NCBI RefSeq assembly: GCF_004116335.1 | Contig: NZ_PDKN01000003.1 | Coordinates: forward strand, 248,001 to 312,000 | Length of the DNA: 64,000 nt | Origin: Candidatus Marinarcus aquaticus | GTDB taxonomy: Bacteria > Campylobacterota > Campylobacteria > Campylobacterales > Arcobacteraceae | Reading direction: 5' to 3' | Shown: piece by piece, positions 47,424 to 53,485 of the stretch | How the letters are laid out: each line of letters begins with the position of its first letter | How positions within the stretch are numbered: the first letter of the stretch is position 1 | Position numbers and translations under genes: made by a program | Notes under the pieces: model-generated | Databases searched by the model: none | Told to the model about the DNA's origin: nothing | Seen by the model: the letters and a program-made list of their open reading frames with translations, nothing else

Positions 47424-48614
47424 TTATTGAATGATGATTTTAAATATATTTTTTTTATTTTCATGCAGATATTCAAGCTTGAAATCATGACGTTGTAAAA
47501 TTTTATGCACAATGCTTAATCCCAATCCAAATCCGTCTCTTTGAGTCAACTCTTGTGTGAATGGTTTGAGGTAATACGCCAACTTTTTATTGAGTTTTTT
47601 TCCTTCATTAATGACATGAATCTCATGGGCAGTGGTTTTAATACAAATGGGCAAAGATGAAGCATATTTCAAAGCGTTATCAATGAGGTTTTTTAGTGCA
47701 ATGCTTAAATACTCTAAATCCCCATTGATTTTAAACTCTTCTTGCAGGTCTAATGTGATTTTGGACTCATCAATATAGAGCCGATTGAGCGACTCAATTA
47801 TTAAAGTCTCTGCATCAAAACTGCTTTTTGTGAGTTCAAAGGCATTGAGTTTTTCTAATTGTATAAGTTCATTGGTTAAATGCTCTAAATCTGAAAAAAT
47901 TTTATGCAAGAACTCTTTTTGTGATTTATTTTCAATCTTTTCAATCGCAAACTTTCCTTTTGCTATAGGGGTATGCAGTTCATGCCCAATATCTCTTAAG
48001 AGTTCTTGTCGAGTCTGTATGAGCTCTTCCAGTCTTGACGCCATGGTATTAAATGTTTTGGCCAAAGTTCCTATTTCATCATTGGATTTTATGGGAATAC
48101 GACTGCTTAAATTTCCATTGGCAAAGTTATTGATCTCTTGGGTGATTTTTTTCAAAGGCCATAAAAGTTTCAGGATATATAAAAAGATTAAAATCAAAAC
48201 AAAAACATCTAAAAAAATAAGCGCATTGAGTTTGATTTTGTCATTGATGTTATTTACATCCGGTGTCTTTAAAATGATGTGTTCATCGAGAAAAACAAGA
48301 TGTATGATAAATTCATCATCGAAAGAGGGTTTCTCTATTTTGATATAACCAAAAGTGTGTTGTTGAAAATAGAGTCTCTCTAAGTGTTTATATGAGAGGT
48401 TTTTAACTCTTTTAAGCTCATAACGTGTGATGATGTTTTCAAACTGTTCAGGGTCTTCAATGTGGCTAAAAAGCTCATTGCTGATTTTAAGATATTTATC
48501 TTTGATTAAAGCGTCCAAACGTTTGGTATTGATGTCATCGATCCATAAACCAATGATGCTCATGAGTATCAAACTTGCAATGAAAAGAAGAGAAATCTTT
48601 TTAGTAATGCTCAT
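47424..48614 (-). CDS. Sensor histidine kinase of the cytochrome operon
   Basis: A 396-residue kinase with one N-terminal and one central membrane helix (about 8-26 and 130-150) around a periplasmic domain of about 100 residues, a HAMP domain (about 150-203), phosphorylated His211 (DIGHELHTPIAKGKF) and an ATPase domain with GLGLSIV. The GHELHTPIAKGK motif is typical of the ArsS-like kinases of Campylobacterota. It starts 3 bases after the response regulator at 48618, which follows the cytochrome genes on the same strand. Confidence 0.93.
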   Translation of the reverse strand: MSITKKISLLFIASLILMSIIGLWIDDINTKRLDALIKDKYLKISNELFSHIEDPEQFENIITRYELKRVKNLSYKHLERLYFQQHTFGYIKIEKPSFDDEFIIHLVFLDEHIILKTPDVNNINDKIKLNALIFLDVFVLILIFLYILKLLWPLKKITQEINNFANGNLSSRIPIKSNDEIGTLAKTFNTMASRLEELIQTRQELLRDIGHELHTPIAKGKFAIEKIENKSQKEFLHKIFSDLEHLTNELIQLEKLNAFELTKSSFDAETLIIESLNRLYIDESKITLDLQEEFKINGDLEYLSIALKNLIDNALKYASSLPICIKTTAHEIHVINEGKKLNKKLAYYLKPFTQELTQRDGFGLGLSIVHKILQRHDFKLEYLHENKKNIFKIIIQ

Positions 48615-48617
48615 GAG

Positions 48618-49286
48618 TTAACCTATAAATTTATACCCAATACCCCAAATGGATTTGATGTATTGTGGCTCTTTGGAATCATCACCAATTTTATGGCGAA
48701 TGTTTGAAATGTGAGTGTCAATGGTGCGGTTTTTGGTATTTTCATCCAGTGAAGTAGCATGCAGTATTTGCTCTCTTGAAGTGACTTTGTTGAGGTGGTG
48801 AATTAAAAAAAGAAAAATCTCAAACTCTACTTTTGTTAAGTCGATACTGTAATTATCTAAAATGACCGTTCGATTGGCTTCATCAATGATGAAATCACCC
48901 ACCTTAAATTCTTTAGTTGGTCGACGCTTTAAGATATGCTCAATGCGTAAAACCAGCTCTCTGGGCTCATAAGGTTTGGCTAAATAGTCCTCTGCTCCTA
49001 GCTCAAAACCTAAGATTTTGTTGCCAATATCTCCTCTGGCTGAAGAGATAATCACAGGAACATTGCAGATGCCTTTAATCTTTTTAAAAACATCAAAGCC
49101 GTCCATTTGGGGCAACATCAAGTCTAAAATAACAATGATATAATCACGAGGTGTGTGTTCAAGTGATTTTAAAGCCTCTTTAGGGTTTGAATAGGCATCG
49201 GTGCTAAAGTGATACTCTTCTAAATACTCTTGTATAAGCCGTTGCATTTGTGGATCATCTTCAATGAGCAGTACTTTTTTATTCAA
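48618..49286 (-). CDS. OmpR-family response regulator of the cytochrome operon
   Basis: 222 residues. The receiver has LIEDDPQMQ, the phosphorylated Asp in VILDLMLPQMDGFDVF and KPYEPRELVLRI; the C-terminal winged helix contains DLTKVEFEIFLFLIHH and TIDTHISNIRHKIG followed by IKSIWGIGYKF. It overlaps the Spy-like gene by 8 bases and pairs with the kinase at 47424. Expected to control the SHP/DHC/cytochrome b561 genes, with which it is co-directional. Confidence 0.94.
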   Translation of the reverse strand: MNKKVLLIEDDPQMQRLIQEYLEEYHFSTDAYSNPKEALKSLEHTPRDYIIVILDLMLPQMDGFDVFKKIKGICNVPVIISSARGDIGNKILGFELGAEDYLAKPYEPRELVLRIEHILKRRPTKEFKVGDFIIDEANRTVILDNYSIDLTKVEFEIFLFLIHHLNKVTSREQILHATSLDENTKNRTIDTHISNIRHKIGDDSKEPQYIKSIWGIGYKFIG

Positions 49287-49671
49287 CTTGCCACTCCTTT
49301 AAATAGTGTGAAAAGAGTTCTCGTTGTTGGGGTGTTAATACCCCATGTATTTTTTTCAACGTTTTGGCTTCAAGTTCGATGCTGTCTTCATAAATCTCTT
49401 CAGCAATCTCTTCATATTCCTCTTTATCAAAGTGCTCTTTTTGCATCAGTTTTTGAAGTTTTTTCTCCTCTTTTTTACGTTTTTCATAGTAGTGGTCAAA
49501 CTTTTTTTTATACTCTAAAAGAATTTGTTTCATACGTTCATGTTGTGCAGAAGAAAGCTCTAAATAGTCTAAATTTTTATAAATATGAGTATGTTCTGAG
49601 GGCTTTTTAGCCCAAACAAAAGAGCATAAAAGCAGACTAGTTAAAATCAGAGATATTTTTAATTTTATCAT
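49279..49671 (-). CDS. Spy/CpxP-like periplasmic protein
   Basis: A 130-residue secreted protein with a signal peptide (LILTSLLLCSFVWA). The rest is helical and very rich in Lys and Glu (YEKRKKEEKKLQKLMQKEHF), with a LTPQQRELFSHYLKEW end that matches the LTxxQ motif of the Spy/CpxP/ZraP family of periplasmic chaperones and stress sensors. It lies between the cytochrome genes and the two-component pair and may act as accessory to the kinase, as CpxP does for CpxA. Its start overlaps the preceding diheme-domain frame by 35 bases. Confidence 0.82.
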   Translation of the reverse strand: MIKLKISLILTSLLLCSFVWAKKPSEHTHIYKNLDYLELSSAQHERMKQILLEYKKKFDHYYEKRKKEEKKLQKLMQKEHFDKEEYEEIAEEIYEDSIELEAKTLKKIHGVLTPQQRELFSHYLKEWQVE

Positions 49672-49996
49672 CTTCTATCAATCCTTTTTCAACATCACTG
49701 TGACACGCTTTGCAGTTGGCTTTGCTTTTTATTTTTTCATGTGCAAAGAGTGTTGTTGGTACCTCTTGGTGTGCATGTTTCCAAAAAGAGGTGTGTGTCA
49801 TTGCAATTATATCTTTATTTCCAATCGAATTCAAAAACGACAAACTTGCTTCTTTTGTCGAACTTTCTGCACTGTTTTTGACCAAAAAAGCCAAAATGGT
49901 TTGATGGGTTTGCTCATCCAGTGAGGCATCATCTCCAAAGTGATTCTCCAAGTCATTCATCAATGCAGTCCATGAGTGTTTAGGCAATAGATTGGG
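49637..49996 (-). CDS. Diheme cytochrome c (DHC) domain, C-terminal part of a frameshifted b561-DHC gene
   Basis: From CCC (49996-49994) onward the frame reads PNLLPKHSWTALMNDLENHFGDDASL, which aligns closely with LLPENAWNTMMNELDNHFGVDASL of the DHC protein at 50763, and ends with the heme motif CKACH. The first heme motif of this domain, CGSCH, is encoded at the end of the cytochrome b561 frame (49980-50753). The two halves are joined by a +1 shift at TAT-CCC-T-CCC (49997). An ATG further upstream in this frame (50083) lies over the b561 coding sequence and is not a real start. This is a mutated gene, a sequencing error, or a +1 recoding site. Confidence 0.72.
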   Translation of the reverse strand, partial: PNLLPKHSWTALMNDLENHFGDDASLDEQTHQTILAFLVKNSAESSTKEASLSFLNSIGNKDIIAMTHTSFWKHAHQEVPTTLFAHEKIKSKANCKACHSDVEKGLIEDDKIKNISDFN

Positions 49997-50753
49997 AGGG
50001 ATACAGAGTGTGACACGAGCCACACTCTGAAACGAACACCTCATTTTGCTTTGAATAATCCACGGGTTCATAGGAAGAAGCAATCAGTACATTTTTAGGG
50101 TTGATAAGATTATAAACAAGAAATGCAACTAAGGCAATCAAAAAGATAAAAGCAACGGCTTTTTGAAAAATAGTGGTCTTGATGCTTTTATCTTCATCAA
50201 GGTGTTTATAACCTGTAAAAATTGATTTGAGTGTTTCATATTGAGGATGAAAGAGTTTGTCCATTATTACTCCACCTAAGTGCACAACAATCAAAAAGAT
50301 AAAGAAGTTGGCCAAGGTTTCATGTATCTCTTTAAAGAGTTTCATTTTTTTAAAAAAAGAGTCATTTAAAAAAGAAAAAATTCCTTTGCCTTCTTGAATA
50401 CCAAAGGCCAATGCACCTGTAGCAATTACTAAAATGGCTACGACGATCATGGTAATCATCAAATAAGAAGCGGCAGGATTATGTCCTGCATTACTGTGGT
50501 CTGCTTTGATGGGATTTTTGACAAACTTTTTTAAAGCCTCTTTGCTGAGGTTAAAATCCTTAAATTTTGAATACTTGGGACCCACAATTCCCCAAACCAA
50601 TCTGAATAAAAGTATGATTAATAAACTGTATCCAATAACGGCATGATAATCTAACAAGTGGTCATCGTCTGTTAAAAATGCCAACAAAATCAGCAGGGCA
50701 AACAGCCAGTGGAAGACCCGTGTAGGCAGGCTCCAAATATATGATTTCATCAT
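49980..50753 (-). CDS. Cytochrome b561-type membrane protein, 5' part of the frameshifted b561-DHC fusion
   Basis: A diheme cytochrome b of the b561 (bacterial/Ni-hydrogenase) family with four main membrane helices. It has a typical start (WSLPTRVFHWLFALLILLAFLTDD), HAVIGYSLLIILLFRLVWGIVGP and IHETLANFFIFLIVVHLGGVI with the heme histidines, then a fifth helix and a periplasmic tail. The tail runs into CGSCH, the first heme-c motif of a DHC domain, and then hits a stop (49980-49982) 9 residues later because of a one-base shift. With the shift corrected the protein has about 371 residues. It accepts or gives electrons between quinone and the SHP/DHC cytochromes. Confidence 0.88.
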   Translation of the reverse strand: MMKSYIWSLPTRVFHWLFALLILLAFLTDDDHLLDYHAVIGYSLLIILLFRLVWGIVGPKYSKFKDFNLSKEALKKFVKNPIKADHSNAGHNPAASYLMITMIVVAILVIATGALAFGIQEGKGIFSFLNDSFFKKMKLFKEIHETLANFFIFLIVVHLGGVIMDKLFHPQYETLKSIFTGYKHLDEDKSIKTTIFQKAVAFIFLIALVAFLVYNLINPKNVLIASSYEPVDYSKQNEVFVSECGSCHTLYPSQSIA

Positions 50754-50762
50754 TTTATCTCC

Positions 50763-51272
50763 TTAATCTTCCCATCGCCCAAAGTTGGGGATGTTAATAT
50801 CTCGTTCACTGTATATACCCTTTTGAGCCGTGGTATGGCAAGCTTTGCAGTTAAACAGGCCTTTGACTTCTGGTTGAGTGATGAGAGAAGGGCGTATCTC
50901 ATCATGTTTTCGTATCATATATGGTGTCGTTGAAATTGACTTTGCAATGCTGTTTTTAGGCAAACTTTGTACAATTTTACGGCTTCGTTTATACTGCATG
51001 TTTTTTTCGGCACTGTTTTGTTGCAGATACGCTGAAATGGTTTGAAAATCTTCATGTAATAAAGAGGCATCCACTCCAAAGTGGTTATCCAATTCATTCA
51101 TCATTGTATTCCAAGCATTTTCAGGCAATAACCCTGGCTGATATGCAAAATGACATGCCCCACACTCTTGAATATATAAAGCATTATTCACTGGGGCCAC
51201 ATCGATTCGTTTTGAGGAATAACCATCGGCAAAAACAAATAGAGGTATAATTAAAAAAAGAAAGGGTTTCAT
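50763..51272 (-). CDS. Diheme cytochrome c (DHC)
   Basis: A 169-residue periplasmic cytochrome with signal peptide (FLFLIIPLFVFADG) and two heme motifs, CGACH (about residue 36) and CKACH (about residue 147). Between them are LLPENAWNTMMNELDNHFGVDASL and LQQNSAEKN, typical of the DHC family that reduces SHP in Rhodobacter and Shewanella. It lies 2 bases after the SHP gene and 9 before the cytochrome b561 gene. Its DHC domain is repeated in the b561 fusion, so the pair arose by duplication. Confidence 0.9.
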   Translation of the reverse strand: MKPFLFLIIPLFVFADGYSSKRIDVAPVNNALYIQECGACHFAYQPGLLPENAWNTMMNELDNHFGVDASLLHEDFQTISAYLQQNSAEKNMQYKRSRKIVQSLPKNSIAKSISTTPYMIRKHDEIRPSLITQPEVKGLFNCKACHTTAQKGIYSERDINIPNFGRWED

Positions 51273-51274
51273 GG

Positions 51275-51667
51275 TTAATCCTTTGATAGGATATAAGTAA
51301 TTACATCCCCTTTTTCTTGTGCTGTTCCTTCTCTGTTATACACATCTTTAAAATTTCTCATGAGCCATTTCTCAATGTTTTTAATTTTTGTTAAGCGCTC
51401 AGGATTCGCTTTAGGTGAAAGGGGCTCAATCACTTTTCCTGTAAAAAAGTTTTTATGTGATTCATTGAGGTTGGTACCATGACATGAGGTACATGAGATG
51501 GCTTTTCCTTTTTTTCCCATGTGGGTTGAGGTAAAAATGGTTTCTCCTCGTTTGGCATCAAACCCTTTAAAATTTTCAATCTTTTGTTCCAGTTGTGATA
51601 AGTAATCATCACTGACATTTGCAAAACTGAATGTTAAGGCGGTGCAAATAAAAATGAATAACCGCAT
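51275..51667 (-). CDS. SHP-like monoheme cytochrome c (DUF1924)
   Basis: A 130-residue periplasmic cytochrome with signal peptide (LFIFICTALTFSFA), one heme motif (CTSCHG, about residue 59) and the DUF1924 pattern around it (FDAKRGETIFTSTHMGKKGKAISC, then ANPERLTKIKNIEKWLMRNFKDVYNREGT). In Rhodobacter SHP the heme iron binds O2 or NO and is reduced by DHC. It is the first gene of the operon that continues with DHC and cytochrome b561. The physiological substrate of such systems is not known with certainty. Confidence 0.9.
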   Translation of the reverse strand: MRLFIFICTALTFSFANVSDDYLSQLEQKIENFKGFDAKRGETIFTSTHMGKKGKAISCTSCHGTNLNESHKNFFTGKVIEPLSPKANPERLTKIKNIEKWLMRNFKDVYNREGTAQEKGDVITYILSKD

Positions 51668-51772: not shown

Positions 51773-53380
51773 TCACTCTGTACGAACAGAAGAGAGAATG
51801 TCCATCTCTTTTTTATACAGATGCGTCTCAACTTCAAACATGCCTAAAAGGGTATGAAAAAGGTTGTCTTGTGAAAACGGTTGCTCTTTTATTCTTTCAA
51901 GTTTCTTGATGTCAAAGTCCTCTTTCATCCCTTCTCCAAACCACATCACCGATGCCACATGCGTTTGTGTATTAGGAGCCATAAAGTAAGGCATACCGTG
52001 TAAATAAAGACCATCTTCTCCTAAACTCTCTCCATGATCTGACATATAAAGCATCGCCGTTTCATGAGTTTTTGAGTAGGGTTTTAAAAAGTTAATCACT
52101 TTAGATAAGAAGGCATCGGTGTGTAAAATGGCATTGTCATAGGCATTGCCAATCTCCTCTTTGGTGCATTTTTCAAGCTGATTGGTTTTACACACAGGGG
52201 TAAACTTTTCAAACTCTTTGGGGTATCGTTTGTAATAAGCAGGTCCATGGTTCCCCATTTGATGCAGTACAATTAAGATATCTTCGTTTTTGTTTTTTTC
52301 AATGTAATCCTCTAATCCTACAAGCATTCCTTCATCTCGACACTCCCCATCTTTTTCACAGATGGTATTGGTTTTTGAAGAACGATAATCTTCATATTGC
52401 ACACGTAATGCAACCCCTTTGGAACTGGAGTTGTTGTCTCTCCATAAAATATGCACTTGTTTGGTATGCGTTAATACATCCAAAACATTTTCATTGGAAA
52501 TACCTTTTTTGTAAGAGTATTTATCACGGTCAAACATCGAGAACATACAAGGCACTGAATGTGCGGTTGATGTACCACATGAGGCAATTTTGGAGAAGTT
52601 ATAAATCTCTTGTTGTTTAAGCAATGGATTGGTCTCTTTTTCGTAACCATTAAGTGAAAAACGGTCGGCTCGTGTTGCTTCTCCTACAACCAAAATGACC
52701 AACTCTTTTTTCTCTTCATCGGTTTCATGAATGGCAGCATCTTCCCCTTGAGGTTTTAAAACATTTTTTGATTTAAAATAGGTGCGTTTGGTATAGTTTC
52801 CAATACTGAACATCCAGTACGTTGGGTTGGCATAGTATTTAATACTTTTATGCTCTCTGAAAAAAGAGGTGTAAAATTTACTGAATGCCAAAATCGTCAC
52901 AGCAATTAACACAAAAGTAATCAGCAGTGTTTTAATTTTTCGAAAACTCTCTTGTTTAAAAGTGCCATATTCTACAGGTATTTTGTAAATAAAAAAGCTT
53001 GGAATCAAACCCAGTAAAATCACATATACAATGAGTTCAAAACTGAGTAAATCATACGACTCATTGAAGTTGGTCTCCATGGCATTTCGTATCATGCTGT
53101 GGTCAATGACAACGTTATAGGTATTCATAAAATAAGCAGTAAAGGCAGATACCATCACAACTGTGATTAGAAAAGGTTTGAGTATGTATCGTGAACTGAA
53201 CAGTGACAGAACAAAAGTGATGAACAAAAACAGCGTTACAAACACAGAGATACAGTAAAGAATATTGAGGCCACTAAAAGAGTAAATGCCCAGCAGATTT
53301 TTAAAAAATGAGGTGTTATAAAACAGCGTGAGTAACAGCGAGGTGTAAACAATAAGTTTATACTGAGTAACAGATTTCAT
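51773..53380 (-). CDS. eptA: Lipid A / LOS phosphoethanolamine transferase (EptA-like)
   Basis: An inner-membrane enzyme of 535 residues with five N-terminal helices and a periplasmic alkaline-phosphatase-like domain. It has the metal motif VVGEATRADRFSLNGYEKETNP, the nucleophile Thr region CGTSTAHSVPCMFS and YMSDHGESLGEDGLYLHGMPY with the metal ligands. It transfers phosphoethanolamine to lipid A or other surface targets, which can reduce binding of cationic peptides. The start at 53380 has AAGGA 5 bases upstream; the frame is open to 53425 without a ribosome site. It may belong to the regulon of the neighbouring two-component systems. Confidence 0.94.
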   Translation of the reverse strand: MKSVTQYKLIVYTSLLLTLFYNTSFFKNLLGIYSFSGLNILYCISVFVTLFLFITFVLSLFSSRYILKPFLITVVMVSAFTAYFMNTYNVVIDHSMIRNAMETNFNESYDLLSFELIVYVILLGLIPSFFIYKIPVEYGTFKQESFRKIKTLLITFVLIAVTILAFSKFYTSFFREHKSIKYYANPTYWMFSIGNYTKRTYFKSKNVLKPQGEDAAIHETDEEKKELVILVVGEATRADRFSLNGYEKETNPLLKQQEIYNFSKIASCGTSTAHSVPCMFSMFDRDKYSYKKGISNENVLDVLTHTKQVHILWRDNNSSSKGVALRVQYEDYRSSKTNTICEKDGECRDEGMLVGLEDYIEKNKNEDILIVLHQMGNHGPAYYKRYPKEFEKFTPVCKTNQLEKCTKEEIGNAYDNAILHTDAFLSKVINFLKPYSKTHETAMLYMSDHGESLGEDGLYLHGMPYFMAPNTQTHVASVMWFGEGMKEDFDIKKLERIKEQPFSQDNLFHTLLGMFEVETHLYKKEMDILSSVRTE

Positions 53381-53485
53381 AGAGTTCCTTTTAATTAAAA
53401 AAAGATTATAGTAAATGAAGCTCAATAAGGCGTTAACAAAGAGTTAATAAAGCTTTAACACTTTATGAACTTTTGTTCATATTTC

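Follow-up and report, generated by a model that had tools for sequence, protein, structure and literature searches.

A conserved gene for cytochrome b561 and a membrane diheme cytochrome c (mDHC) in the SHP operon of Candidatus Marinarcus aquaticus is, very probably, expressed through a programmed +1 ribosomal frameshift. The gene lies in a 64,000-nucleotide stretch of contig NZ_PDKN01000003.1 (the window), taken from a draft assembly of 20 contigs and 2.53 Mb. Two overlapping frames and one +1 shift give a single homologous protein, as judged by PFAM and structure alignments. An earlier note on this DNA had proposed a +1 shift at CCC-U joining cytochrome b561 to a diheme cytochrome (DHC) domain, and had left three origins of the break open: recent mutation, faulty assembly or genuine recoding. 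The results below support the shift, which restores a full DHC domain on read-through, and they favor recoding, with formation of the products inferred from sequence. They also go beyond that note in pointing to an upstream hairpin, a CCC-A variant of the site (9 of 28 loci), the apparent absence of tRNA-Pro(GGG) and a frequent return to one frame.

The cytochrome gene belongs to an operon-like run on the minus strand that encodes an SHP-like protein, a soluble diheme cytochrome c (sDHC), cytochrome b561, a Spy/CpxP-like protein, a response regulator and a histidine kinase (Table 1). Genes for SHP (PF09086), DHC (PF09626) and cytochrome b561 stand side by side, the same gene content as in the SHP / sDHC / CytB-mDHC chimera operon (PMC2909971). 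SHP operons with a cytochrome b/membrane-DHC chimera have been described, Arcobacter butzleri included; electrons are thought to go from quinol to cytochrome b, then to the DHCs and on to SHP, for which nitric oxide dioxygenase activity has been reported in Rhodobacter sphaeroides (available text of PMC2909971). The word 'frameshift' appears nowhere in that text, where the chimera is treated as a single gene. Upstream of the operon, on the same strand, lies a gene for an EptA/EptB-family phosphoethanolamine transferase (51773-53425). The mDHC frame and the Spy/CpxP-like gene overlap by 35 bases (window 49637-49671), the ATG of the latter lying within the end of the former, and almost every locus of the family, whether frameshifted or in-frame, retains the overlap. 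Two in-frame species, at loci L087 (G046) and L091 (G042), have no Spy-like gene, and there the response regulator directly follows the cytochrome. Because the locus is no more than about 10-20 kb from the record end in many single-contig genomes (L056-L082; for example G010, G043 and G014), it probably lies near the replication origin in these genomes.

Table 1. Features of the operon and of the frameshift site, in window coordinates.
Feature	Position	Strand	Remarks
SHP-like c-type heme protein, first operon gene	51275..51667	-	DUF1924, PF09086; like PDB 1dw0
Soluble diheme cytochrome c (sDHC), upstream operon gene	50763..51272	-	PF09626; PDB 3u99, 2fw5
0-frame ORF, prokaryotic cytochrome b561 + CGSCH + tail SQSIA	49980..50753	-	PF01292
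Candidate stimulatory mRNA hairpin	50006..50027	-	arms 50021-50027 (GAGUGUG) and 50006-50012 (CACACUC)
First heme-binding motif CGSCH, 0 frame	50010..50024	-	within hairpin
TAT, E-site codon with CCC in the P site	50001..50003	-	
Slippery tetramer CCC-T	49997..50000	-	CCC 49998-50000, fourth base 49997
0-frame stop TAA	49980..49982	-	six codons past CCC
+1-frame continuation, rest of diheme cytochrome c domain, second heme motif	49637..49996	-	PF09626; 119 codons + stop
Second heme-binding motif CKACH, +1 frame	49700..49714	-	94 codons into downstream part
Spy/CpxP-like periplasmic protein	49279..49671	-	PF13801
Operon response regulator	48618..49286	-	
Operon sensor histidine kinase	47424..48614	-	

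On the minus strand the b561 frame reads CGSCH-TLYP-SQSIA and stops, while the +1 frame goes on as PNLLPKHSW...CKACH, just as the earlier note had described. Reading through the junction gives a protein of 371 residues; the predicted short product has 257. In the read-through protein the Pfam DHC profile (PF09626) spans the junction, matching residues 241-357 with profile positions 2-114 of 116 (E 1e-32). The +1 ORF alone matches this profile only from position 10, and a Pfam profile search with the 0-frame ORF alone finds no DHC match. The read-through protein also aligns across the junction with solved DHC structures. An AlphaFold model of it, built with 19 sequences, has a mean pLDDT of 77.5, with values of 56-79 over most of the DHC part; at this level of uncertainty, we use only its predicted last membrane helix at residues 195-217.

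How often does such an arrangement arise by chance? In 464 kb, made up of the window and 20 stretches of 20 kb, we counted CCC-A/T sites preceded by 80 or more open codons. Just two of 437 such sites, this one included, combine a 0-frame stop no more than 25 codons away with a +1 frame open for 60 codons or longer, and of these two the cytochrome site alone has the hairpin described below. The second site (L211, minus strand, about 17841), where the +1 frame is open for 84 codons and no hairpin is found, is probably due to chance.

The break is widely shared within the family. Of 104 family genomes searched, 69 had a match with an E value of 1e-20 or lower; 54 loci were fetched and, with the window, 55 were examined, further b561 copies in some of the genomes being left out. 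The frame is broken in 28 loci and intact in 22 (16 close orthologs and 6 more distant ones), and 5 loci have b561 without DHC. The earlier note had suggested looking at the same site in relatives, and the identical break is indeed present in 27 family genomes besides the window. All 28 breaks fall on one codon, in the sequence ACT-CTN-TAT-CCC followed by TCC (19) or ACC (9), giving CCC-T in 19/28 and CCC-A in 9/28. The slip is always placed at the first of two proline codons, never at the second. TAT precedes the site in 28/28 frameshifted loci, 14/16 in-frame loci of the family and 16/20 in-frame loci of the order, and CCC occupies the slip codon in 0/16 in-frame orthologs of the family and in 2/20 of the order, both CCC-C; these are counts of related sequences, not of independent events. 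The break is shared across genera at about 68% DNA identity, and several frameshifted loci are in single-contig genomes.

A search of the order (398 genomes, 136 matches at E 1e-40) suggests that the break is confined to this family. Among the matches listed, which extend to about E 3e-63, alignments that end at query residues 253-258 come from the window's family only; weaker breaks outside the family may lie beyond that level. All 20 relatives fetched from the order encode b561-DHC in one frame. In two genomes of another family (G359 and G241), one TAA interrupts a b561-DHC match that is full-length in other respects.

On a tree built from 45 read-through proteins, the frame state must change 9 times; supported branches force 7 or more of these changes, and in-frame copies fall within frameshifted groups (for example G055/G068 beside G010). 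The best fit to this tree is a single gain in the family followed by repeated losses; several independent gains of the frameshifted state are possible. Given these 9 changes, many lineages manage without the frameshift, a single frame having been regained repeatedly.

The earlier note had described the part downstream of the break as undamaged, and this proves to be true of the whole set. The diheme half is open in 28/28 frameshifted loci, and the second heme motif lies exactly 94 codons on in every one. Among 135 moderately diverged pairs of frameshifted loci, the median dN/dS of the downstream half is 0.35, and the in-frame copies give a slightly lower median of 0.25 (52 pairs). Changes fall 32, 20 and 48% on the three codon positions of the +1 frame, with third positions in the lead. 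This is the signature of a translated frame under purifying selection, slightly looser than in the in-frame copies.

What might make the ribosome slip at this codon? The only proline tRNA among the 44 tRNAs listed for this genome is tRNA-Pro(UGG), and the identical 78-nucleotide gene is found in 20/20 genomes searched. No second kind of proline tRNA was found in relatives, where ARAGORN was run on 13 of 30 returned loci; the other matches that we read were His, Arg, Lys and similar tRNAs. These bacteria appear to lack tRNA-Pro(GGG), the safe reader of CCC. The genome encodes TrmD, the m1G37 enzyme, and a member of the wobble-uridine modification family TIGR00452, which we take to be CmoB. The UGG tRNA pairs weakly with CCC (PMC4519876). 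In E. coli, +1 shifting at CCC-A reaches 4.2% when tRNA-Pro(GGG) is removed, against 1.5% with it, and 11.6% when m1G37 is lost (PMC8324841). With T or A as the fourth base in 28/28 loci, tRNA-Pro(UGG) could re-pair at +1 with CCU or CCA; alternatively, this base may simply go back to a former CCT or CCA codon, of which it was the third letter. Ordinary genes of this genome show no avoidance of CCC-A/T: it accounts for 428 of 572 CCC codons in 356 genes, among which CCC-TCC occurs 3 times and CCC-ACC 7 times. Because it is so common there, the tetramer alone cannot be very slippery.

A candidate stimulator lies just upstream. The 7-bp hairpin ends 5 nucleotides before CCC, adjoins the E-site codon and has a minimum free energy of -14.8 kcal/mol in the window. 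It can form in 28/28 frameshifted loci, and in each it folds more stably than the bulk of synonymous shuffles (P 0.002-0.051, mean z -2.86); the same test on 16 in-frame orthologs gives a mean z of -1.71, with five above zero. The full set of stem codons (GAG, TGT, ACT, CTN) is present in 28/28 frameshifted loci, in 4/20 in-frame loci of the order and in 7/16 in-frame loci of the family, seven orthologs in which the stem thus persists; since the rows are related, the Fisher p of 1.7e-9 cannot be read as a true probability. When the corresponding position is folded for 506 CCC codons of the sampled genome, the cytochrome site comes out with the lowest energy. The single codons GAG, TGT, ACT, TAT and CCC are fully fixed at the site.

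Other results do not favor the hairpin as a stimulator, and some count against it. Its sole varying position, the third base of the His codon, pairs either way (GC 14, GU 13); the other 6 of 7 pairs never vary across the 28 frameshifted loci, and compensatory changes are absent there. When hairpin and frame state are compared on the tree, independent pairs agree 3 to 0 with 4 ties (sign test p 0.25). By themselves, covariation and the tree sign test give the hairpin no support. In a scan of synonymous conservation with 7-codon windows the junction is not the most constrained place; the end of the gene, where it overlaps the next, scored lower. A search for nested structures downstream found none conserved (consensus energy -0.17, shuffled mean -0.98), and Rfam returned three weak matches, all far below the curated scores. 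Upstream hairpins beside the E site are known to stimulate +1 shifting on 70S ribosomes (PMC6321510) and in yeast (PMC3639245). In the available text of PMC6321510 the stimulation occurs only without RF2 and at a stop-codon site, whereas the slip site of the cytochrome gene is a sense codon.

Does the unshifted frame matter as well? Its stop is at the usual place in 27/28 frameshifted loci, and a stop stands at the homologous place in 11/16 in-frame loci of the family and 2/20 of the order. The third base of the proline codon that forms this stop, a synonymous position, is T in 27/28 frameshifted loci. The one exception among the 28, L070 (G065), has a 0 frame nine codons longer. This retention hints that a prompt end of the unshifted frame is favored; it carries less weight than the other evidence, since in-frame members of the family may simply have inherited the stop triplet. 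With the stop kept, two products are expected, b561 alone and b561-DHC. Stand-alone b561 genes (L102-L105, L108) were considered as a mirror of the short product and rejected, since L102-L104 lie in other surroundings with no heme gene nearby.

The slippage itself, its rate, the role of the hairpin and the importance of both products we infer from what is observed: the two frames and their conservation, the fixed site, the selection downstream, the single tRNA-Pro found and the potential to form a hairpin. While CCC occupies the P site, only the weak wobble pair of tRNA-Pro(UGG) would hold it, and this tRNA would re-pair one base on, with CCU here and with CCA in other species. The next codon read would be CCN in the +1 frame, and the ribosome would complete b561-DHC (371 residues here). 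Ribosomes that do not slip would end six codons later and release b561 of 257 residues with one CxxCH motif. The hairpin, refolding once it emerges from the ribosome directly behind the E site, probably makes the shift more frequent.

More tentatively, the shift may be regulated. A refolding mRNA hairpin behind the ribosome would then replace the internal Shine-Dalgarno sequence and set the ratio of b561 to b561-DHC. The rate of shifting would vary with the state of tRNA-Pro (m1G37, cmo5U34), with EF-P acting at the Pro-Pro junction or with the pull exerted when the last b561 helix inserts into the membrane. Since the start of the Spy/CpxP-like gene lies inside the +1-frame end, only shifted ribosomes would reach it, so a regulated shift would also tune the sensor/regulator pair. 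Coupling of frameshifting to these downstream genes is possible on the gene arrangement seen here.

Other explanations have to be weighed against a programmed shift. A pseudogene or a sequencing or assembly error might be suspected where a single base breaks a gene in a 20-contig draft. The chance of this is negligible: since the identical break recurs at 28 loci, several of them in single-contig genomes, faulty assembly is excluded, and the recent mutation allowed for by the earlier note is excluded by a break shared across genera and a downstream half that is intact and constrained. Transcriptional slippage, which would yield in-frame mRNAs and the same proteins, is scarcely more credible, for the run here is CCC only. 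RNA polymerase slippage needs much longer runs of A or T. A -1 shift can be set aside, the downstream continuation being in the +1 frame. Could the downstream half instead be a separate gene, started alone by re-initiation at a GTG 23 bases upstream of CCC or nearby? A +1-frame GTG does lie inside the hairpin in 28/28 loci. However, this triplet is a by-product of the GAG-TGT-G codons and appears also wherever in-frame genes have GAG TGT; in most loci a +1 stop 32 bases before CCC leaves room for that GTG and at times a single further start; inspection of alignment A2 by eye shows no Shine-Dalgarno sequence suitably placed ahead of the GTG; and the product would be without the first heme motif and any export signal. 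We regard two separate genes as very improbable.

A less remote alternative, though still an unlikely one, is that a fixed indel has merely been tolerated, 'saved' by a leak of tRNA-Pro(UGG) at CCC-W that suffices for the long protein, with the short product and the ratio unselected. The repeated regain of a single frame (9 changes on the tree), the in-frame state across the order and the known baseline slippage of tRNA-Pro(UGG) on CCC-A (PMC8324841) all agree with this idea. Against it stand the fixed hairpin codons and the retained 0-frame stop in frameshifted loci, the lack of decay in 28 loci and the choice of the first of two proline codons every time. On balance the frameshift looks ancient and programmed rather than the result of damage.

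To our knowledge, few bacterial chromosomal genes have a conserved +1 frameshift, and prfB is the standard case. In prfB, which encodes RF2, the P-site tRNA slips at CUU before a stop codon with the help of an internal Shine-Dalgarno duplex, and the shift senses RF2. The cytochrome gene resembles prfB as a bacterial chromosomal gene with +1 slippage of a P-site tRNA, an upstream duplex and wide conservation with many losses, a pattern also described for prfB (PMC12421855). It differs in having a sense A-site codon (UCC/ACC) and a proline tRNA, and in that the duplex would be an mRNA hairpin. A sense codon, TCC or ACC, follows CCC in 28/28 loci, and no purine-rich stretch lies at the spacing of a prfB-type internal Shine-Dalgarno sequence (by eye, alignment A2).

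The closest match in sequence is cps of the Listeria phage PSA, which shifts +1 at ACA_CCC_UCC (PMC5009743). It shares the CCC_UCC sense-codon site and a low-GC host (PMC5009743); however, it is a phage capsid gene with a downstream pseudoknot, whereas the cytochrome gene has an upstream hairpin and no downstream nested structure was found. Slippage of E. coli tRNA-Pro(UGG) on CCC-A and CCC-CG involves the same tRNA and motif (PMC8324841, PMC4519876), but there it is an error process and an engineered reporter, and the cytochrome site is a conserved gene element. In test constructs, refolding hairpins adjacent to the E site promote +1 shifting (Cho 2013; Huang 2018), and the available text of PMC3639245 and PMC6321510 names no natural bacterial chromosomal case.

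We found no published report of this cytochrome frameshift in the literature searched. Neither 'cytochrome' nor 'Arcobacter' occurs in the text of the GeneTack survey, its supplementary tables aside, and the first 300,000 characters of a 2016 recoding review do not contain 'Arcobacter'; an entry in a frameshift-cluster database is possible. What appears to be new is a programmed +1 shift placed at a sense codon for proline and accompanied by a candidate hairpin upstream, in a gene of bacterial respiration.

The site uses a sense codon in a respiratory gene, spans several genera and occurs in bacteria apparently without a safe CCC-reading tRNA. Close in-frame and frameshifted species offer a natural experiment on how such sites originate, persist and are lost, and the same species set offers one on upstream hairpins as stimulators. 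Annotation programs will probably report this gene as broken or split, and the electron-transfer partner of SHP may then go unnoticed in these genomes. If frameshifting occurs, it would set the share of b561 that carries its own diheme relay.
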